Counted from the first letter of the stretch, positions 6,188 through 23,116 are shown. The stretch is 40,646 nucleotides of DNA from Paracoccaceae bacterium (GCA_029242355.1 JAQWUC010000071.1:1-40646); one strand, 5' to 3'. Numbers and translations: made by a program. Notes: a model not told the origin generated them from the sequence alone.

Positions 6188-7729
6188 ATGAAACATAGAG
6201 AGGGTGGTCGGTTAGGTAATATAAATCGTAGAAAACGAAATTTGATTGATCAAATGCCCTGGAGGTTGCCTAGAAATATAGATAAGCCAATAGAACCTTT
6301 AGATCAATCTGGCGTTGAATCTATTCATAATGGCGCAATGAAAATATTAAGTGACATTGGCATTGAATTTCTTAATCCAAAAGCTTTAGAAATATTTAAG
6401 AAAGCTGGTTGTATTATTAACGAACAAAATGTTCGAATTGATAAAGATCTTGTTATGGAGATGGTCGATTTGGCCCCAAGTACTTGGACCATAACACCTC
6501 GTAACAAATCTAAAGAACTAATTGTTGGAGAGAATTTTTTATTATTTGGGAATGTTTCATCACCACCTAACTATTGGGATTATGGAATGAACAAAAAAGT
6601 TTCTGGAACAAGAGAGCAATGTCAAAATCTTTTAAAACTAAGTCAATATTTTAATTGTATACATTTCATTGGGGGATATCCGGTGGAGCCTATTGATCTT
6701 CACCCAAGTATCCGTCACTTGGATGTTCTTTACGATAAATTAACATTAACTGATAAAGTATGTCATGCTTACTCTTTGGGAAAAGAGCGTGTCGAAGATG
6801 TCATGGAAATGGTTCGGATAGCAGGTGGTCACTCGTATAACGAATTTGAGTCAAACCCAAAAATGTATACAAATATTAATTCTACATCACCTCTTAAGCA
6901 TGACTACCCAATGATTGATGGTTGGATAAGATTGGCCAAAAGGAATCAGGGCTTGATAGTAACACCTTTTACCTTAGCTGGTGCTATGGCGCCTGTTACT
7001 ATGGCGGGTGCAGTTGCGCAGTCAATAGCAGAGGCGCTATGTGTTGTTGTTTTGGCGCAACTTGTTCGTCCTGGTGCGCCGTGCGCTGTCGGAACATTTA
7101 CGTCTAATGTAGATATGAAAACGGGCGCGCCAGCCTTTGGAACACCTGAGTATATGCGAGCGACTCAAATGACAGGGCAACTTTGTCGCTTTTATAATCT
7201 ACCTATGCGATCATCAGGTGTGTGTGCGGCAAATGTTCCAGACGGTCAGGCTATGTGGGAAACATCTAATAGTCTTTGGGCGGCTGTGCAATCAGGAACT
7301 AATCTTGTTTATCATGCTGCGGGTTGGCTTGAGGGAGGGCTTATTGCCAGTCCAGAAAAGTTTATTATGGATTGTGAAGTTTTGCAACAGATACAAAGAT
7401 ATATGGAACCTGAGGTGTGTGCAACGACAGTAGATGCAATTGCGTTAGATACAATTAAAGAGGTCGGAAATGATGGTCATTTTTTTGGAGTCCAGCATAC
7501 TCAAGATAGATACACTACGGCATTTTATCAGCCCTTCTTATCAGATTGGACCAACTATGAAGGGTGGGAACTGGGAGGCGGTAAGTGGACAGCAGAACGT
7601 GCACATTTATTGTTTAAGGAAATAGTTTCTGATTTTGAACCACCTTTTTTAGATAATGCCATACATGATGAATTAATAGAGTTCGTAGAACGTAGAAAAA
7701 GAGAAGGAGGAGCTCCTACAGACTTTTAA
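6188..7729 (+). CDS. Trimethylamine methyltransferase (MttB) family protein, non-pyrrolysine form
   Basis: 513-aa COG5598-like protein (AMKILSDIGIEFLNPKAL, GTPEYMRATQMTGQLCRFYNLP, AAGWLEGGL); continuous reading frame with no internal TAG. Confidence 0.85.
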   Translation: MKHREGGRLGNINRRKRNLIDQMPWRLPRNIDKPIEPLDQSGVESIHNGAMKILSDIGIEFLNPKALEIFKKAGCIINEQNVRIDKDLVMEMVDLAPSTWTITPRNKSKELIVGENFLLFGNVSSPPNYWDYGMNKKVSGTREQCQNLLKLSQYFNCIHFIGGYPVEPIDLHPSIRHLDVLYDKLTLTDKVCHAYSLGKERVEDVMEMVRIAGGHSYNEFESNPKMYTNINSTSPLKHDYPMIDGWIRLAKRNQGLIVTPFTLAGAMAPVTMAGAVAQSIAEALCVVVLAQLVRPGAPCAVGTFTSNVDMKTGAPAFGTPEYMRATQMTGQLCRFYNLPMRSSGVCAANVPDGQAMWETSNSLWAAVQSGTNLVYHAAGWLEGGLIASPEKFIMDCEVLQQIQRYMEPEVCATTVDAIALDTIKEVGNDGHFFGVQHTQDRYTTAFYQPFLSDWTNYEGWELGGGKWTAERAHLLFKEIVSDFEPPFLDNAIHDELIEFVERRKREGGAPTDF

Positions 7730-10346: not shown

Positions 10347-11522
10347 TTATTTTGATATTGGCAGTCTTTTTTCAATTATTCTTGATAGAACGGCTGATCC
10401 AACCGTAAGACTTTTGGTGTCAAAGTAAAAATTTGGGCTGTGAAGAGCTATATTTCCTTCATGGCCAAGCTTACAATATGCCCCTGGAGTTATTTTTAAA
10501 AAATCTGCAAAATCCTCTGATCCTGTAGATGGAGGGGCGTTAATGTTTGTGTTCTTTGGTCCAACTATGTCAGCGGCTGCATCAATATAAGCATGTGATA
10601 ATTTAGTATTATTAATAAGAACATCAAAAACTTTTCTAATTTTCAGGTTGATTTTAATATTATAGGATATTTCTAATCCATTACATATTTCTTCTAATCT
10701 TTGTTTAGTCAGTTGAAAAATATCATTTGAAAAATATCGAATTGTTCCAGATATTTGAGCAGTTTCCGGAATAACATTATAAGCTGATCCAGCATGAAAT
10801 TGGGTGACTGATATGACACACGTTTCGAGTGGAGGAACATTGCGACTCACAATATTTTGGATTTGGGTAACCAACGAAGAGGCTATTAACAACGAATCTT
10901 TTGAATTTTGAGGAGCTGCTGCGTGTGAACCTTTTCCTATAAGATTAATGTCAAAAAAAGAAGCCCCAGCCATTGCAGGTCCAACACAAATTTCAACTTT
11001 ATTTGGTGATTGATTTGGCCAATTATGAATTCCATAAATTTCATCACAGGGAAATTTTTTAAATATACCGTCATTAATCATTTTTAAGGCGCCGCCTAGG
11101 CCTTCCTCTGCTGGTTGGAAAATAAGTATAGCTCTACCATCAAATTCTCTAGTCGCAGAAAGGTATTTTGCTGCTCCAAGAAGCATGGTCGTGTGTGCGT
11201 CATGACCGCATGCGTGCATCTTTCCACTGATCTTTGATGCGTAGGGCAAATTTGTTTTTTCATGAATTGGAAGAGCATCCATATCTGCTCTTAATCCAAT
11301 ACAACGATTATTGCTTTTTTTTCCATTAATGACTCCTACGACTCCTGTTATACCTATTCCTGTTTGGACATCATCTACACCAAATTCGTAAAGTTTATCT
11401 TTTACTATTTGGGCAGTTCTATGTTCTTCAAAACCTAATTCTGGGTTTTCATGAAAATCTTTAAATATATCAATTAACTCACTCTCACTTGATGAAATTA
11501 TTTGAGGAATATTTATAGTCAT
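10347..11522 (-). CDS. M20 family amidohydrolase (hippurate hydrolase / N-acyl amino acid hydrolase-like)
   Basis: ADMDALPI, MHACGHDAHTTMLLGAA, FQPAEEGLGGA. Confidence 0.93.
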   Translation of the reverse strand: MTINIPQIISSSESELIDIFKDFHENPELGFEEHRTAQIVKDKLYEFGVDDVQTGIGITGVVGVINGKKSNNRCIGLRADMDALPIHEKTNLPYASKISGKMHACGHDAHTTMLLGAAKYLSATREFDGRAILIFQPAEEGLGGALKMINDGIFKKFPCDEIYGIHNWPNQSPNKVEICVGPAMAGASFFDINLIGKGSHAAAPQNSKDSLLIASSLVTQIQNIVSRNVPPLETCVISVTQFHAGSAYNVIPETAQISGTIRYFSNDIFQLTKQRLEEICNGLEISYNIKINLKIRKVFDVLINNTKLSHAYIDAAADIVGPKNTNINAPPSTGSEDFADFLKITPGAYCKLGHEGNIALHSPNFYFDTKSLTVGSAVLSRIIEKRLPISK

Positions 11523-11621: not shown

Positions 11622-12755
11622 TTAAAGAGCCTTAGATAGTTCGAATACGAAATAATCTAATTCCTCATTATTACTCCATAGGTGAGGAGTAATTCGCAGT
11701 GAATTTGCACGTTTAGATAAATAGATATTCTTAGATTCTAGAATGCTTAATAAGTCAGGGTTTGAATCTGATGGTAATTCTGCACTTACAAAATGAGGGC
11801 CTCTTTGCTGTTCATTGAGAACCGACAATCCAATATTTTTCAATTTATTTGCTAAGGTAGCGTTTTGATTTTGTAGAGTAGCTTCTATTTCTGAAATACT
11901 CCAATTTAATAGCTGTTCAAGAGCTGCTACAACTCCTGGTATTAATGAAAAGTTAGACCTTTCTCCCATATCAAACCTTACAGCTCCAGTTTGGTATTTA
12001 TTTGTATAGTTAACAAGGTTGATAAAATTTTGACTATTTTTACGAGAGATCCAACCCTCTTCCAGAGGTCTGCCTTCGTGATACTTCGGATCAACGTAAA
12101 GAAATCCAGTAGTGTAGGGTCCTAACATCCATTTATAATTAGCAACTACTGCAAAATCAGGCTTTACTTCGCGAAAGTCGATTGACATAGCTCCAACAGA
12201 TTGGGTTAGATCTAATACAAGTGCTGCATTAACAATGTTACATTTTTGCCTTACTTTAACAAGGTCAATTAACTCCCCAGTTGTCCAAAGAACGTTTGGT
12301 AGAGCTACAATTTGACATTTTTCATCAATGGAATTTACGATGAAAGAAGTTAAATCATTTTGTTCCTTATTGGATATCATTCGAATATTTCCATTTTGTT
12401 CTTCTGCTAGACGAATCCAAGGGTAAACATTTGAGGGAAATTGATCTTCTAAAATTAAAATTTCTTTTTGAGATGAAAGCTTCAGATTTTTTGCAGCAGT
12501 TTCAATTCCATAGGAGGCAGATGGAATTATTGCGATAGTGTCGCTTTTGGCATTTACAATTTTCGAAAAAAGAAATCTTGCTTTATTCACGTCTTCGTAG
12601 AAGTCTGGAATCTTTATTTTCCAAGGATTTTCTTTTGCCTGGGTACCTTGATTTATAGCAATCATTACCGACTTCAATAACGGTGACATATATGCGGTAT
12701 TCAAGTAGACGATGTCTGAAGGGATACTGAAAAGTGAGCGTTGAGATAAAAGCAT
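11622..12755 (-). CDS. Class V aminotransferase (cysteine desulfurase/isopenicillin-N epimerase-like fold)
   Basis: VYLNTAYMSPL, LDLTQSVGAM, PLP-lysine segment VVANYKWMLGPYTTGFLYV. Confidence 0.88.
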   Translation of the reverse strand: MLLSQRSLFSIPSDIVYLNTAYMSPLLKSVMIAINQGTQAKENPWKIKIPDFYEDVNKARFLFSKIVNAKSDTIAIIPSASYGIETAAKNLKLSSQKEILILEDQFPSNVYPWIRLAEEQNGNIRMISNKEQNDLTSFIVNSIDEKCQIVALPNVLWTTGELIDLVKVRQKCNIVNAALVLDLTQSVGAMSIDFREVKPDFAVVANYKWMLGPYTTGFLYVDPKYHEGRPLEEGWISRKNSQNFINLVNYTNKYQTGAVRFDMGERSNFSLIPGVVAALEQLLNWSISEIEATLQNQNATLANKLKNIGLSVLNEQQRGPHFVSAELPSDSNPDLLSILESKNIYLSKRANSLRITPHLWSNNEELDYFVFELSKAL

Positions 12756-12789: not shown

Positions 12790-13446
12790 CTATTTGTCCA
12801 AGGTTTTATCCGGCCCTGCAGGAAAAACCCCCGGCATGACAGTAAAATGGGGTATTCTTTTAAACCGGTCGCACCAACGTCTTATTGCAGGATAATTAAT
12901 TCTAGAGATTCCTCCTTCTTCTGATAAAATTATATAAGGAAAACACGCAATATCTGCAATGGTTGGATTTTTTGAATGACAAATCCAAGAATATCCCTGT
13001 TGCTCATTAAAATATAAATGCTCGTCAAGAACTCTAAATAGTTCATGGGCTCTTTTTCTGCATTCTTCGATTCGAATATCTGTATAAAAGAAACCATCAT
13101 GAAGCCTAGCGGCAGAAGATGTTGAAGTAAGATCATTTGCGAAGAAAAGCCATTCTGAAATTTGGGCAATCATTGCTGGATTACGTGTTGGATACCATCT
13201 TTTTTGCCTGTCATATTTTGCTGCTAGATAAATCAGTATGGCTTGCGCATCTCTAACTAATATATCTTGATCAGAGATAACTGGTAATTGGCCTAACGGA
13301 TTTATCTTAAAGAATTCTTGAGACTTATGTTGTTTTGAAGGATAAAATTCGATGAGTATTTGTTTATATGTAAGACCTAAAAACGCCAACATAAGGCGAA
13401 CTTTATAACAATTGCCAGATAATTCGTAATCATATAGTTTTAGCAT
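12790..13446 (-). CDS. Glutathione S-transferase family protein (positional candidate for an NdmE-like partner)
   Basis: Thioredoxin-fold N-terminus LYDYELSGNCYKVRLMLAFLG, NPLGQLPVI, C-terminal NPTIADIACFPYI; 8 nt from the Rieske-reductase gene. Confidence 0.88.
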   Translation of the reverse strand: MLKLYDYELSGNCYKVRLMLAFLGLTYKQILIEFYPSKQHKSQEFFKINPLGQLPVISDQDILVRDAQAILIYLAAKYDRQKRWYPTRNPAMIAQISEWLFFANDLTSTSSAARLHDGFFYTDIRIEECRKRAHELFRVLDEHLYFNEQQGYSWICHSKNPTIADIACFPYIILSEEGGISRINYPAIRRWCDRFKRIPHFTVMPGVFPAGPDKTLDK

Positions 13447-13454
13447 TTTCTATC

Positions 13455-15170
13455 CTAGATATCTAAAATTAATCTATCTGATTTTGCTCTGGAGACGCAT
13501 GTTAGTATCACCTTTCCTTTTCTTTTTTCTGATGAGTTCAGGTATACATCTTGATGATTAATATCACCTTCTAGGACGGATACTTTACATGTTCCGCACG
13601 CTCCTTGTTCACACGAACTTTCTAATTTTATACCGTTTTCAGTTAATACTTCAAGAATACTTTTTCCTGATGGCACGTTAAGACTAATCGCAGATCTGGC
13701 TAATTCTATTTGGAACGTTGAATCGTTATCAATTTTATTATTATTTTTAAAATACTCATATCTTAGGTTTGATTCGTTCCAACCAGAGTCATTTCCAATT
13801 TTGATCGTGTTTTCAATCATTTCTCCAGGTCCGCAAACATAAACCTTATTTAAAGGGCTCGGTGTTTCTAATATCTTTTCAATCTTGGACAGAGTTTGAT
13901 CAATCGTTAAATCAATATACGTATTTGTATTTTTACCTAGCTTATAAATTTCATTTTGAAATGCTGACAGATCTTGTGATTGAGTAAAGTAATGAAATTC
14001 AAAGCTTAGCTTCATTGAGTGCAAAGCTTTTGCCATTGATAGTAATGGCGTTATTCCAATTCCTCCAGCAACAAAAATAGTATGCTTTGAGTTTCTTAAA
14101 AGCGGGAAACTGTTATGTGGTGATGAAATTGCTATTACATCACCAATTGCAATATTTTCACCAATTGTCTTTGAACCACCTCCTCCATTTTTTTCTATTT
14201 TTACGGCAATGCAATAATGGTCTGTTTCTCCAGGTCCATTTGTAAGGGAGTATTGCCTGATTAATCCATTTTGGAGTTGTATATCGATATGGGCTCCCGC
14301 ATGGAATGTGGGGAGCTGTTCTTTGATACTTTTTAATTTTAGTTTGATAATATTATCTGAAATTCTTACTTTTTCAGTCACAGTAACTCGTAGATGAAAT
14401 CGTTGGTTTTGATTTCCATAAACTGGAATCTTTGAAAGTTGATCAGATACTTGTGAGATCTTTGGCTCCAGATCGGGCAATTGGGGACTATCCTGTTTTT
14501 CTAGTTTATCCCTTATCTCAACCATAATGGAGTTATAGTGCTTTAGGATTTTTATTTTCTCTGCACCTTCAATGTGTAAACTATAAATACCTCTCAAAAT
14601 TGAAATATTATTATTTTGAGGTTGGATGAAAAAACTTATTTGAGTACCAGATTCTAATTTAAATTGCCACGCGACGGTGCTTTTAGATTTTACGAATTGA
14701 TGTTTGGGTATCCCTACATTTGTAAGAAAATTTTCAATAGTTTTATATGAGCTATTTATTGGTATTGGGCGTAAAACAGTATACGATCCAAAACCTTCAA
14801 TTTCAGGAACTGTACCATCTGGCGTTTCACATGTCCAAATCATTCCATACTTTTCTTGGCTTTGATAAGTATTATTACAGATAGTTCGAGCAGGAGCATC
14901 AGCTGGGTGAGCAGGTATGTAAGTACAGCCAGCTGTTCGATTGGCATAACGCCAACCATGGTACTGACATTTTAACTCTGAACCTTCATTTATGCCTATT
15001 GAAAGTCTTACTCCTCTGTGAAGGCATCTATTTTCCCAAATATTTACGTGCCCATCATCGGCTCGCCAAATCGCATATTCTCTTCCGAGCAACTGTGCTT
15101 GAAATATATGCCTATAAGGTAAGTCAGAGGTACTAGCTACAGGAAACCATTTAGAAAATTCAATATCCAT
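13455..15170 (-). CDS. Rieske [2Fe-2S] + FNR-type reductase + plant-type ferredoxin fusion (NdmD-like electron-transfer component)
   Basis: Rieske ligands CLH-16aa-CQYH (residues 49-71); FMN/FNR motif RQYSLTNGP, GGIGITPLLSMA, VYVCGPGEM; C-terminal CEQGACGTC...LTC ferredoxin. Confidence 0.93.
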   Translation of the reverse strand: MDIEFSKWFPVASTSDLPYRHIFQAQLLGREYAIWRADDGHVNIWENRCLHRGVRLSIGINEGSELKCQYHGWRYANRTAGCTYIPAHPADAPARTICNNTYQSQEKYGMIWTCETPDGTVPEIEGFGSYTVLRPIPINSSYKTIENFLTNVGIPKHQFVKSKSTVAWQFKLESGTQISFFIQPQNNNISILRGIYSLHIEGAEKIKILKHYNSIMVEIRDKLEKQDSPQLPDLEPKISQVSDQLSKIPVYGNQNQRFHLRVTVTEKVRISDNIIKLKLKSIKEQLPTFHAGAHIDIQLQNGLIRQYSLTNGPGETDHYCIAVKIEKNGGGGSKTIGENIAIGDVIAISSPHNSFPLLRNSKHTIFVAGGIGITPLLSMAKALHSMKLSFEFHYFTQSQDLSAFQNEIYKLGKNTNTYIDLTIDQTLSKIEKILETPSPLNKVYVCGPGEMIENTIKIGNDSGWNESNLRYEYFKNNNKIDNDSTFQIELARSAISLNVPSGKSILEVLTENGIKLESSCEQGACGTCKVSVLEGDINHQDVYLNSSEKRKGKVILTCVSRAKSDRLILDI

Positions 15171-16064
15171 TCAAGTAAACCGAGAAAGATTAATGTCTTT
15201 GCTTGGTATTACACCATAAGTAAGTCCCTTTTGAGATAACCATCTTCTATATGCAATTGCGGATTTATCAGCACGAATTGGAGTTTCTGCTCGCGAATCC
15301 AACGGTAATTTTTTAGGAAGTTGATTTTCTAGTATAGGTTTATCTTGGCCAAATATTGTTTGTTGAAAAAGACGAATATCCGCATCAGCACTTTTGTCAT
15401 CGATTATGCACATTCCAGTGTGAGCTCGCACTTTTTCTGGCCCAACTGGTTGAACAAAAATCACTATAGCATCTTGTCGAGATTCATCAACAGGACTTGA
15501 TTTGTAGAGTATTGCGCAGTTAATATGTGGAACACGATATATGTACTCTACATCGGTACCTTCACTAGAAGCGACTGCTGCCTGAGGTTGATAGAATTGG
15601 CATTTGGTAGCTAATATTTCATCATCATTTTCAGAAATTGAAACGTCATATTCTTTAACTTCTGTATGAGGCTCCTCGCCTAGAATGCCCGTGTGTACGA
15701 ATGGAAAGTGCCCCATATCAAGGAAGTTTTCTATGGCTCTACCAGCAGAGATATTAACACCAAAAGCTCCTGTCGCTACATTTCTGCGATCAATTTCATA
15801 AAATTCTGGAAAAGAAAATAAATCAGGAGCTGGATGCCCTAGGGTAGTCCATAAATATCCATATTTTAATTTAGCTTGAAGTAACTTTTTTGATGGATCG
15901 GCACTTTTCCATATTAGAACTTCTTCATCAGAAATTTTATTAAATGAAAGGTCTTCTTCTAAAAGAATAGTATTTCCTTGTTCGTTGTTTTTTAAATCAT
16001 CAACAGAAGAAATAGGGTGCCATTGGTTTAAAATAACTTTATCTGTGCAAATTGTGGCGCCCAT
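15171..16064 (-). CDS. Rieske-type oxygenase catalytic (mononuclear non-heme iron) subunit lacking a Rieske cluster (NdmC-like)
   Basis: AIENFLDMGHFPFVHTG gives the D-x2-H-x4-H iron motif; FGQDKPILENQ candidate carboxylate segment; no CxH/CxxH pair anywhere; N-terminus NQWHPISSVDDL...YGYLWTTLG resembles a Rieske domain with the cluster loops missing. Confidence 0.88.
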   Translation of the reverse strand: MGATICTDKVILNQWHPISSVDDLKNNEQGNTILLEEDLSFNKISDEEVLIWKSADPSKKLLQAKLKYGYLWTTLGHPAPDLFSFPEFYEIDRRNVATGAFGVNISAGRAIENFLDMGHFPFVHTGILGEEPHTEVKEYDVSISENDDEILATKCQFYQPQAAVASSEGTDVEYIYRVPHINCAILYKSSPVDESRQDAIVIFVQPVGPEKVRAHTGMCIIDDKSADADIRLFQQTIFGQDKPILENQLPKKLPLDSRAETPIRADKSAIAYRRWLSQKGLTYGVIPSKDINLSRFT

Positions 16065-19771: not shown

Positions 19772-20920
19772 CTATATTTTAGCTTTTTGTTTTTTGGGAT
19801 CATAGAATGGTATCTGCACAATTTTAGCCTTTTCTTTTGAACCATCTATATGAACTTTTAGTGATGTGCCTATATGCGCAAAATTGATGTCAATCATTGC
19901 TAGGGCAATATTTTCTTTTAAGCGGGGTGAGTATACTGCAGACGTGACTTTCCCAACAATTTGTTCATCTATTTCAATTGACCAAAATTCTTTATTTGGC
20001 GAATTTAGTGGTTTGGTGTCAATAATCAGACCAATTTGCTTTTTGGAAATACCATTCAGTTTTATATTACTTAATGCCATTTTTCCAATGAACTTTGTCT
20101 TCATATCTAGATTTACAAGTCTTTCAAGGTTCATTTCAAATGGATTGTTTTCAGAGTTCATATCGGCATGATAAGATAACATTCCTCCTTCAATTCGACG
20201 GATGGTTGAAGTATGACCGGGTTTAAGACCAAATGGTTCGCCTGCTTTCATAATTATTTCCCAAAGTTTTGTGCCTTGTGAGCCATCACGTAGGAATATT
20301 TCGTAACCTAACTCACTGGACCATCCTGTTCGAGACACTATCAATGGTATTCCTTCATGGTTCAATTCTATAAACCAATAGTAACGTAGCTGTGATACGC
20401 TTTCTCCAAATAGCGCATTTATTATCTCTCTTGATTTGGGGCCCTGGAGTTGTAATGGCGAAACATCAGGTTCACAGATATTAATATTCATATTGGAATT
20501 TATAGCTATTCCTTTGACCCAAAGAAGAATATCGCTGTCAGCTAAGGATAGCCAAAAATGGTTTTTGCCAAGTCTTAACAAAACTGGATCGTTTAAAATC
20601 CCGCCATTGTTGTCGGTAAGTATAATATATTTGCATTGACCGACGGCGCATTGGGAAATATCTCGCGGAGTTAAAAATTGTACAAATTTTTCTGCGTCTG
20701 GCCCTGTTATTTCTACCTGTCTTTCTACTGAAACATCACAAAGTATTGCTTTATTGATAAGGTTCCAAAAGTTTTCCTCCGGGTCTCCAAAATCACGAGG
20801 GATATACATGTGATTGTAAACAGAAAAGTCTTTAGCTCCCCACTGGACGGTCGCTTTAAAAAATGGAGATTTTCTGATCTGAGTGCCAAATCCAAAATCG
20901 TTTTTGTTCTTGTTTTTCAA
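19772..20920 (-). CDS. GcvT-superfamily aminomethyltransferase, dimethylsulfoniopropionate demethylase (DmdA)-like
   Basis: IRKSPFFKATVQWGAKDFSVYNHMYIP, CDVSVERQVEITGPDA, LNDPVLLRL, RTGWSSELGYEIFL, RRIEGGMLSYHADMNSENNPFEM, AVYSPRLKENIALAMI; true DmdA versus sister clade not resolved. Confidence 0.78.
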   Translation of the reverse strand: MKNKNKNDFGFGTQIRKSPFFKATVQWGAKDFSVYNHMYIPRDFGDPEENFWNLINKAILCDVSVERQVEITGPDAEKFVQFLTPRDISQCAVGQCKYIILTDNNGGILNDPVLLRLGKNHFWLSLADSDILLWVKGIAINSNMNINICEPDVSPLQLQGPKSREIINALFGESVSQLRYYWFIELNHEGIPLIVSRTGWSSELGYEIFLRDGSQGTKLWEIIMKAGEPFGLKPGHTSTIRRIEGGMLSYHADMNSENNPFEMNLERLVNLDMKTKFIGKMALSNIKLNGISKKQIGLIIDTKPLNSPNKEFWSIEIDEQIVGKVTSAVYSPRLKENIALAMIDINFAHIGTSLKVHIDGSKEKAKIVQIPFYDPKKQKAKI

Positions 20921-20968
20921 AATTTATCCAATCGTTTGTAATTAAGTCTGAGAGGACATCTCATCTTT

Positions 20969-21304
20969 TTATCGACCAAAGCCAGCGCTGATAAATGGAT
21001 TTTGGTATAACTGACCATGTGACTCAACTCCATCTTGAATGATACAGTCTTCGGTTGGTCTTGCTACACATAGAAGTATGTAACCCTCTTGTGATTGTCT
21101 TTTATTTATAGCTGTAGCTCCTGGTTGCTTTACTTTACCTGAAACTAGTTTCGCAGCGCACGTGATACAACCTCCATAGTTGCAGCCTATCGGCAATTGA
21201 ATTCCCTTTTCGAGAGCAGCTTCATAAATTGATTGATTATACTTAACGTCGATTTCAATATTGCTGTTTAATAATTTTACTTTGTATGAACTAATTTTAG
21301 GCAT
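20969..21304 (-). CDS. Plant-type [2Fe-2S] ferredoxin
   Basis: GCNYGGCITCAAKL...LLCVARP (C-x4-C-x2-C...C); ATG at 21304 overlaps the upstream stop by 1 nt (TGATG). Confidence 0.92.
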   Translation of the reverse strand: MPKISSYKVKLLNSNIEIDVKYNQSIYEAALEKGIQLPIGCNYGGCITCAAKLVSGKVKQPGATAINKRQSQEGYILLCVARPTEDCIIQDGVESHGQLYQNPFISAGFGR

Positions 21305-21753
21305 CAAATTCCTAAATTTAATTTAGGTTTCCAAAAAGGTCGAAATAATTCAATTTTTGGGCATCTGTCCATAACAACCTTTAAGCCTGCATCTTCCGCT
21401 AATTTTGCTGCTTTTTCATCGAACACACCAATCTGTGCCCATAAAACTTTTGCGCCTACATTTATTGCGTCGTTCGCAATATTATAAAGTGCATTTGAAT
21501 TTCGAAAAACTTGAACCATATCAATTGGCCCATCAATCTTTTTGATTGATGAAAAAACTTTAATACCTCTTATTTCATCTAATCCGGGTCGCGGATTTAT
21601 AGGCATCATGTTGAAACCTTGCTCGTGTAAAACGCGAAGGACCCCATAGCTAAATTTTGTAGGATCTGGACTTGCTCCAACCATTGCAATGTTTTTCACT
21701 GAGGCGAGTATTTCAGATAAATAGTTTTCCGGATATGGTTGATTGTGATTCAT
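21304..21753 (-). CDS. CoA-binding domain protein (YccU/succinyl-CoA synthetase-like Rossmann fold)
   Basis: IAMVGASPDPTKFSYGVLRVL, INPRPGLDEIRG, VLWAQIGVFDEKAAKLAEDAGLKVVMDRCPKIE. Confidence 0.92.
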   Translation of the reverse strand: MNHNQPYPENYLSEILASVKNIAMVGASPDPTKFSYGVLRVLHEQGFNMMPINPRPGLDEIRGIKVFSSIKKIDGPIDMVQVFRNSNALYNIANDAINVGAKVLWAQIGVFDEKAAKLAEDAGLKVVMDRCPKIELFRPFWKPKLNLGI

Positions 21754-21763
21754 AATTTTTCTC

Positions 21764-23116
21764 CTAAATCCAAATATCAGACGTACAATCACCGCCTGGG
21801 TACCGAGTTTCGTGGCATCGTGATGGACCATTGGGTTCTTTTCCAAAATCAACTATAAAGTCAGGATTTATTTTCATTCCGCCGATATCAGTGTTACAGT
21901 CAACCATAATCATTACGCCACCCTTATGTCGTATCTCGGGGTAAAATTGATTATCCCAAGTTGAAAAAAGTGATGTTGTGACATAAAGGCGTTTGCCATC
22001 GAGCGACAACTGTATCATTTGAGGTCCGCCAGCTATCTCAACACCATTAACTATAGGCGCTTTTTCCAACATTCCTCCCATCCACACTTGTCCTGTTAAA
22101 ACAGGATTATGAGGATCAGAAATATCGTATTGCCTTAGGTCGCCATGAAGCCAGTTAGATAGGTAAAGGTATTTGTCATCCATAGATAGAAGAATTACTG
22201 TGATTAGGCCTGGAAGAGGAATTGGCCACTCAGGGTGTCGCTCATTTTCAACATCAATTATTTTCTTTACAATCCATTCATTTCCTTCTTTGTACCAATG
22301 AATAATGTTTGATGACATCGCTGCACCAACAAAACCATGGCTTGAGTCCGGATTATGGTGAAATCGAACCTCAAGAGGAACAAGACCATCTTCTCCTAAA
22401 TAGTGTGTTTTGATAACTTTCTTTTCTTTAAAGTTCCAAAAATGTATTTCCCTTCCATATTTTAATAACCCCACCTCTTCCAAATCAAAGCCAGGCATAA
22501 AAGTATTAGGAGCGGCCCATTCGCTTGAAACCATAACGTTATGGCGTGGCTGATACCAAAAATCATAATTAAATTTCATCCCACCAAGATCGTTTTCCCA
22601 TCGGCCTAGTATTTCAAAATCTTTGTTTAAGTGAAGAAAGCCACCCGGGGCGTTTCCTTTTGCATCGCCAAGCATTGATATTATGATTTCAGACCCTAAG
22701 CAATGGACAGTATGTGGAGCTGATAAATTTGTTTTTCTTTTGATTTCTTCTCCTGAAATAACTTTAGAAATTCTTGGTTCTCTCGGATTTGTTGCACAGT
22801 CAATTATGTGTATGTTGGAGGACCGAACACCTGGAACAATTAAGTATTTTCTCTCCATACTTTCATCATCAAAGCAAGATGAGCAAGCATTCCAGCCCAT
22901 ATGATGTAATTCGTCACCGACACTAGGCATTTCACAGCGGTTTATAACTTGTGAAAAAGTTTTACTTTTAGGATCTGCGTCAACCGTTGCTAAATAATCG
23001 GGCTCTTGAATTCCTGTTCCAACATAGATAGCAATTGTGTAAAGTAGCTTTTCTCTAGGAGCTTGCATTGCATCCATTGGCGATGCGTAACCTGGCCCAC
23101 AACAGCTTTTATTCAT
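21764..23116 (-). CDS. mtoX: Selenium-binding protein SBP56 family / methanethiol oxidase homologue
   Basis: SCCGPGYASPMDAM..PREKLLY, DELHHMGWNACSSC, LSAPHTVHCLG, FHHNPDSSHGFVGAAMSSNI, GDLRQYDISDP, YPGGDCTSDIWI C-terminus. Confidence 0.9.
   Translation of the reverse strand: MNKSCCGPGYASPMDAMQAPREKLLYTIAIYVGTGIQEPDYLATVDADPKSKTFSQVINRCEMPSVGDELHHMGWNACSSCFDDESMERKYLIVPGVRSSNIHIIDCATNPREPRISKVISGEEIKRKTNLSAPHTVHCLGSEIIISMLGDAKGNAPGGFLHLNKDFEILGRWENDLGGMKFNYDFWYQPRHNVMVSSEWAAPNTFMPGFDLEEVGLLKYGREIHFWNFKEKKVIKTHYLGEDGLVPLEVRFHHNPDSSHGFVGAAMSSNIIHWYKEGNEWIVKKIIDVENERHPEWPIPLPGLITVILLSMDDKYLYLSNWLHGDLRQYDISDPHNPVLTGQVWMGGMLEKAPIVNGVEIAGGPQMIQLSLDGKRLYVTTSLFSTWDNQFYPEIRHKGGVMIMVDCNTDIGGMKINPDFIVDFGKEPNGPSRCHETRYPGGDCTSDIWI

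Follow-up and report, generated by a model that had tools for sequence, protein, structure and literature searches.

The stretch of DNA analysed here (40,646 nt, hereafter the window) comes from a marine bacterium of the Paracoccaceae and carries a three-gene oxygenase set on its minus strand, on which all features given with coordinates below are located. Pfam matches, homology and AlphaFold models identify the first gene (15171..16064) as encoding an NdmC-like catalytic alpha subunit of 297 aa without a Rieske domain, and the second (13455..15170) as encoding an NdmD-like protein of 571 aa in which a Rieske domain, a relic domain, a flavin/NAD(P)H reductase (FNR) and a ferredoxin are fused. 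The third gene (12790..13446) encodes a GST-like, NdmE-like protein of 218 aa (GST_N_3 3.5e-11). There is no gap between the alpha and fusion genes and one of 8 nt between the fusion and GST genes; reading frames, strands, protein sizes, gaps and the GST in third place are all as the first-pass annotation of this DNA had given them. Beyond the GST gene the same operon continues with a class-V PLP enzyme or aminotransferase (11622..12755; Aminotran_5 2.5e-28) and, probably, an M20 amidohydrolase (10347..11522; TIGR01891 above its cut-off). An independent genome of the same genus (G001) has the three oxygenase genes at 81, 69 and 77% identity, followed by the same two genes in the same order, the aminotransferase gene there overlapping the GST gene. 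This operon link to the class-V PLP enzyme and the M20 amidohydrolase is specific to the genus. The window also carries MttB and GcvT-like genes. No riboswitch was found at Rfam gathering thresholds in the window or in loci L002, L003 and L152-L156.

The alpha subunit matches only the C-terminal domains of oxygenases in Pfam (VanA_C 1.3e-19; KshA_C), and no Rieske model of Pfam matched it. Its iron motif D116-x2-H119-x4-H124 (DMGHFPFVH, residues 116-124; 15693..15719) is invariant in 59/59 aligned relatives, and so is D241 (15342..15344), the presumed third iron ligand by comparison with known Rieske oxygenases. The protein hence has the 2-His-1-carboxylate motif but no Rieske ligands, as in a split oxygenase; an ordinary full-length enzyme would bear both the Rieske cluster and the mononuclear iron. 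The iron motif and the missing Rieske ligands had already been noted from the sequence. By sequence its closest solved structures are SxtT/GxtA and NdmA/NdmB, which are matched from about residue 56-65 onward; these share its catalytic fold and iron motif but bear the Rieske cluster on the same chain, and NdmA/B are only ∼25-28% identical to it in the catalytic domain. The AlphaFold model of the alpha subunit (pLDDT 89.8) matches full-length SxtT structurally, with a TM score of 0.82 of alpha's own length.

In the fusion protein an additional Rieske domain at the N-terminus precedes the flavin and NAD domains of a reductase, and a ferredoxin lies at the C-terminus, in agreement with the initial reading of this gene. 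Its Rieske domain (Pfam Rieske 2.6e-17) has the ligands C49-x-H51 and C68-x2-H71 (CLH...CQYH, residues 49-71; 14958..15026), invariant in 42/42 aligned relatives. A shrunken catalytic domain without iron ligands follows (residues 118-225; 14496..14819), recognised by hhalign, predicted fold and Foldseek. Then come the flavin/NAD(P)H reductase domains (13749..14393; FAD_binding_6 and NAD_binding_1; phthalate dioxygenase reductase 2pia, E 2.5e-56) and a plant-type [2Fe-2S] ferredoxin domain (13458..13715; Fer2 7.9e-16; NdmD ferredoxin 6icm_D, E 2.9e-20). Phthalate dioxygenase reductase, Rieske domains and the NdmD ferredoxin domain are by sequence the closest solved structures for this protein, which AlphaFold models with a pLDDT of 87.5.

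Conservation and phylogeny of the split family

When one genome was scanned for each species, at least 579 relatives were obtained, of which the best 80 belong to Alphaproteobacteria, Gammaproteobacteria and Actinomycetota. In an order-level sample 19/296 genomes had a match (E 1e-30) and in a phylum-level sample 25/397 (E 1e-40), where the weakest matches are full-length oxygenases. The split family is large, mostly uncharacterised and much wider than the caffeine degraders. The distribution of ligands between the chains is strict: alpha relatives have the iron motif in 142/142 cases and the Rieske motif in 0/142, fusion relatives the Rieske motif in 75/75 and the iron motif in 0/75. A full fusion gene is present in 75 loci from Alpha- and Gammaproteobacteria and Actinomycetota. 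In 71 of these, alpha, fusion and GST adjoin directly in this order; the exceptions are three short contigs (L018, L065, L078) and a Sinorhizobium plasmid (L004) with a frame-broken GST gene.

The first-pass annotation had named two observations that would speak against its own reading, a trio that is not kept together in relatives and an alpha subunit that is an ordinary full-length Rieske subunit whose Rieske domain was lost through a sequencing or assembly deletion. The conserved order disposes of the first. As to the second, nothing beyond the missing domain itself points to a deletion, while the same architecture recurs in the 142 relatives from many genomes and the Rieske-less subunits form one supported clade of their own. 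Since the independent genome of the same genus has the trio as well, a deletion can practically be discounted.

At least two Rieske-less alphas are present in 27 of the 75 loci, with a single fusion gene in the loci inspected; a second locus in S. meliloti, for example, has three Rieske-less alphas and one fusion protein. In P. putida NdmD is reported to work with NdmA and NdmB as well (PMC4408171). This and the multiple catalytic subunits could be taken to mean that the main role of the fusion protein is that of a reductase hub to which other oxygenases connect, and that the Rieske-less subunit is a regulatory remnant. We regard this as very improbable. The iron ligands of the catalytic subunit are all invariant, and the window's genome (G000, ∼61% complete) gave a single match to alpha at E 1e-3, so that no other close partner of the fusion protein is evident there. 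Nor was an NdmA/NdmB homologue seen in this ∼61% complete genome.

In the phylogenetic tree, with NdmA/NdmB as outgroup, the Rieske-less alphas form one clade (99/96) apart from the full-length oxygenases. This is the second tree calculated, without two of the full-length outgroup rows and without two Rieske-less rows that have very long branches. Because all Rieske-less alphas fall into one clade, the Rieske domain was probably lost once, ahead of the whole radiation. Six rows, from Paracoccaceae, Sphingomonadales and the window's own genus, make up the clade (97/95) that contains the window's alpha. A separate clade (100/100), which excludes it, is formed by NdmC of the caffeine degraders, and the group holding NdmC (96/88) also contains the second and third rhizobial alphas and the alphas paired with stand-alone Rieske proteins. 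In a quick tree of the fusion proteins NdmD is likewise apart from the window's protein. Hence the locus is not NdmC in the strict sense: orthology is ruled out by the tree, the window's subunit is a distant cousin, and activity on 7-methylxanthine should not be assumed for it. The nearest full-length oxygenases we found, in a thin sample of such relatives, are five betaproteobacterial proteins (L152-L156; ORFs of 327-387 aa) that are placed beside the Rieske-less clade and are 37-42% identical to the window's alpha in the catalytic domain.

For comparison with the known demethylase we used plasmid pTmex-577K of P. putida MT178, a caffeine-type cluster, as the source of NdmCDE references. Its NdmA homologue shares 92% identity with the aligned query segment, which was taken from the solved NdmA, and NdmB-, NdmC-, NdmD- and NdmE-like genes are located beside it. 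For its NdmD-like protein a match to the solved ferredoxin domain of NdmD was obtained as well. Over their full length the window's proteins are 46% (alpha/NdmC, E 1e-93), 34% (fusion/NdmD) and 58% (GST/NdmE) identical to those of MT178. With NdmCDE, the 7-methylxanthine N7-demethylase of Pseudomonas putida CBB5, the window thus shares a Rieske-less catalytic subunit, a reductase with an extra N-terminal Rieske domain and an adjacent GST-like third protein; it differs in lying outside the NdmC and NdmD clades, in its non-adjacent formaldehyde genes and in its other downstream genes. The assignment to the NdmCDE type, already proposed from the sequence, is now backed by the full-length homology of all three proteins, their domain content, the conserved order and the single Rieske-less clade. 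Homologues of ndmCDE with unknown function in Sinorhizobium and Mesorhizobium are ascribed to Summers et al. 2013, as cited in PMC4408171; looking for them by locus tag brought no useful result. These rhizobial loci have the same trio, a catalytic subunit with 58-60% identity and a place in the same major tree group. The number of their catalytic subunits ranges from one to three, and in most cases a BMP-type transporter adjoins; the window has a single subunit and lacks a transporter of this type in its vicinity. Other split sets (Rhizobium, Rhodobacter-type, Komagataeibacter) share the Rieske-less catalytic subunit, the GST and the relic module, but their Rieske protein stands alone without a fused reductase.

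Relic domains in both chains

Each of the two oxygenase chains retains a remnant of the domain that keeps its metal ligands in the other. In the alpha subunit, residues 8-73 (15846..16043) are the relic of an N-terminal Rieske domain in which the sheet is kept and the cluster-binding part is lost. Residues 1-62 align with the Rieske domain in hhalign (E 3.4e-10, score 51.3; ≤15.9 in 30 shuffles), and AlphaFold predicts a well-formed six-strand stub of the Rieske sheet (pLDDT 95-98 in the strands). In the fusion protein, residues 118-256 match the alpha catalytic domain (score 35.8; ≤21.2 in 30 shuffles), and this direct match is moderate (E 5.5e-5, probability 66%). Alignment of whole profiles (fusion 8-229 against alpha 14-237) gave a probability of 97.7 and an E value of 2.3e-12; in it the alpha subunit lacks the cluster-binding part, and the part with the iron ligands has no counterpart in the fusion. 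A by-eye register places V-x-V-S-A-P-R-A-V-E-N-F-L-D-M-G-H of alpha against V-N-A-P-x-x-x-V-x-x-x-L of the fusion, and in this register the fusion positions matching D116 and H119 vary freely. AlphaFold predicts a reduced beta-alpha-beta4-alpha fold for fusion residues 136-225. Foldseek matches of the fusion model to full-length oxygenases had TM scores of up to 0.59, relative to a target of 311 residues; a Rieske domain, with its roughly 115 residues, would be too small to account for such a score by itself. In rhizobia, Rhodobacter-type genomes and Komagataeibacter, stand-alone Rieske proteins also bear the relic module of the fusion behind the Rieske domain (E 2.2e-12, score 71.4 versus ≤17.7 in shuffles); the module is therefore more than a linker to the reductase.

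Alpha and fusion look like complementary, reciprocally decayed copies of one ordinary two-domain Rieske oxygenase. One copy would have lost the Rieske cluster and the other the iron site, each keeping its emptied domain, perhaps for a head-to-tail packing that fixes the distance of electron transfer. An extended form of this idea, which we hold to be quite possible if short of probable, gives the NdmCDE family a single origin, in which a full-length Rieske oxygenase linked to purines was duplicated and the two copies then decayed reciprocally. The result would be a mixed ring whose packing is preserved by the empty domains, and a single Rieske chain would serve several catalytic chains that are interchangeable and differ in specificity. 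We did not find the reciprocal-relic reading in the openly readable literature, and according to a paper from 2026 the structure of the NdmCDE complex had yet to be solved (PMC13237722). Three features seem to be new: the architecture of reciprocal relics, the donor shared between catalytic subunits in many loci, and the full-length relatives in the same purine-type setting.

Neighbouring genes, substrate and proposed reaction

Among 55 loci of at least 15 kb, a BMP-family binding protein is encoded in 27 and an ABC ATPase of the BMP-transporter kind in 33. The background density of BMP proteins is ∼1.2 per Mb, as counted in a small sample of four genomes; at this density an 18-kb stretch would carry one in about 2% of cases. 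The comparison also rests on related genomes. Further family neighbours above NCBIfam cut-offs are S-(hydroxymethyl)glutathione dehydrogenase, S-formylglutathione hydrolase, guanine deaminase and xanthine permease, and xanthine dehydrogenase is also found near related loci. Genes for formaldehyde oxidation adjoin several trios; in the second S. meliloti locus the fusion gene is followed by a GST gene and then by a gene resembling class III alcohol (formaldehyde) dehydrogenase. The five full-length relatives L152-L156 have the same purine-type neighbourhood as the split family (adjacent BMP-type transporters, and guanine deaminase or adenosine-deaminase-like genes in several), although their Rieske domain is intact and no fusion partner or GST was matched within the stretches taken. 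Taken together these neighbours support purine substrates and release of formaldehyde for the family, and methylated purines are the most likely substrate class. Possible links to cytokinin degradation and trigonelline found no useful support in the literature.

This support is not directly transferable to the window. Neither purine nor formaldehyde genes are located next to the trio in the window or in the loci of its sub-clade (L014, L016, L021, L123), and the same is true of the Devosia loci; the neighbours in the window's sub-clade are ribosomal-protein, sugar, polyamine-type or amino-acid-type genes. The formaldehyde genes frmA/frmB are present in the window's genome on another contig, and so not adjacent as they would be for NdmC. 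Since other contigs of this genome also encode a related BMP transporter and xanthine dehydrogenase, a purine route is possible for the window, but methylated purines as substrate of its own sub-clade are only a guess. The first-pass annotation had expected some other N- or O-methyl compound; across the family the neighbourhoods point to purines, but the window's sub-clade is without such neighbours, and for it a compound of this sort is only a candidate.

It is possible, if on the doubtful side, that the same split oxygenase acts in the window's sub-clade on a non-purine methylated amine or amino acid, with the class-V PLP enzyme and the M20 amidohydrolase taking over thereafter. Purine genes are absent nearby, MttB and GcvT-like genes occur in the window, and in the two genomes of the genus the genes behind the trio are those for the aminotransferase and the amidohydrolase. 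Moreover, a relative of the aminotransferase (56%) in another genome of the family is located beside an MttB-type methyltransferase and a DMGDH/GcvT-like fusion. The link to the two enzymes is, however, limited to one genus, another relative of the aminotransferase is found in an unrelated setting, and among solved structures the window's aminotransferase comes closest to cysteine desulfurases and lyases.

A structural role of the GST-like protein had also been considered on the grounds that its glutathione-binding serine is lost. This argument was dropped because the loss is not general among GST relatives (residue 67 is Ala in 51/92 and Ser in 36/92).

In Rieske oxygenases electrons pass from the cluster of one subunit to the iron of the adjacent one, ∼12 angstrom away (PMC12445004), and NdmC, NdmD and NdmE are reported to form one complex, with a structural role proposed for the GST-like protein (PMC4408171; PMC13237722). 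From these reports we propose a two-chain electron route with N-demethylation. On the 571-aa protein electrons would pass from NAD(P)H to the flavin, the ferredoxin and the Rieske cluster. From there they would cross between the subunits to reach the mononuclear iron, and the 297-aa protein that holds it would oxidise an N-methyl group with release of formaldehyde; the GST-like protein would hold the complex together. We hence think that the locus encodes a split Rieske oxygenase of the NdmCDE kind, with oxidative N-demethylation as its probable reaction. Guanine deaminase and xanthine dehydrogenase in family neighbourhoods, and adenosine-deaminase-like genes beside the full-length relatives, would also suit a purine hydroxylase like HpxD, whose substrate has no methyl group. 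HpxD belongs to the Rieske oxygenase family and has a purine link: HpxDE-like oxygenases have been connected to the oxidation of hypoxanthine and xanthine, and some purine-pathway Rieske oxygenases are reported as hydroxylases (PMC7373994). HpxD differs, however, in being full-length and in being reported as a hydroxylase system. With genes for formaldehyde oxidation beside several trios and characterised relatives that are demethylases (PMC4408171), we consider a hydroxylase unlikely.

If the two chains of a demethylase of this kind are complementary relics, this hints at how the complex assembles and why two empty domains persist. It also suggests a way in which several catalytic subunits could draw on one Rieske donor. 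The family neighbourhoods, in turn, suggest that the use of methylated purines may be a general bacterial trait.

Split and full-length Rieske oxygenases in other hosts

In Sinorhizobium meliloti 1021 we found on pSymA a split Rieske set (locus L003, 823-12550) in which three Rieske-less catalytic subunits share one Rieske-reductase and one GST, adjoining a BMP transporter and a formaldehyde-dehydrogenase-like gene. BMP transporters also adjoin full-length Rieske oxygenases in five betaproteobacterial loci (L152-L156), and in at least two of these adenosine-deaminase-like genes lie near the oxygenase.

A Komagataeibacter from kombucha tea (L122) encodes an oxygenase like NdmA of the caffeine pathway (74%), beside which stand a stand-alone Rieske protein, a Rieske-less subunit, a GST and a separate reductase. 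The Rieske-less NdmC of Paraburkholderia caffeinilytica (L119, 5881-6564) is annotated at 227 aa and lacks the N-terminal part of its relatives; this may reflect either a wrongly annotated start or a truncated gene.

Methyltransferase-like genes in the window and in a related genome

A relative (56%) of the window's class-V PLP enzyme (11622-12755, minus strand) occurs in a different genome from the same family, where genes for an MttB-type methyltransferase and for a DMGDH/GcvT-like fusion adjoin it (L163, 3242-8336). The window itself encodes an MttB-family (trimethylamine methyltransferase-like) protein of 513 aa in a single unbroken ORF (6188-7729). At 19772-23116, CoA-binding, [2Fe-2S] ferredoxin and GcvT-like genes lie together with an SBP56 gene, all on the minus strand; the latter belongs to the selenium-binding/methanethiol-oxidase family.
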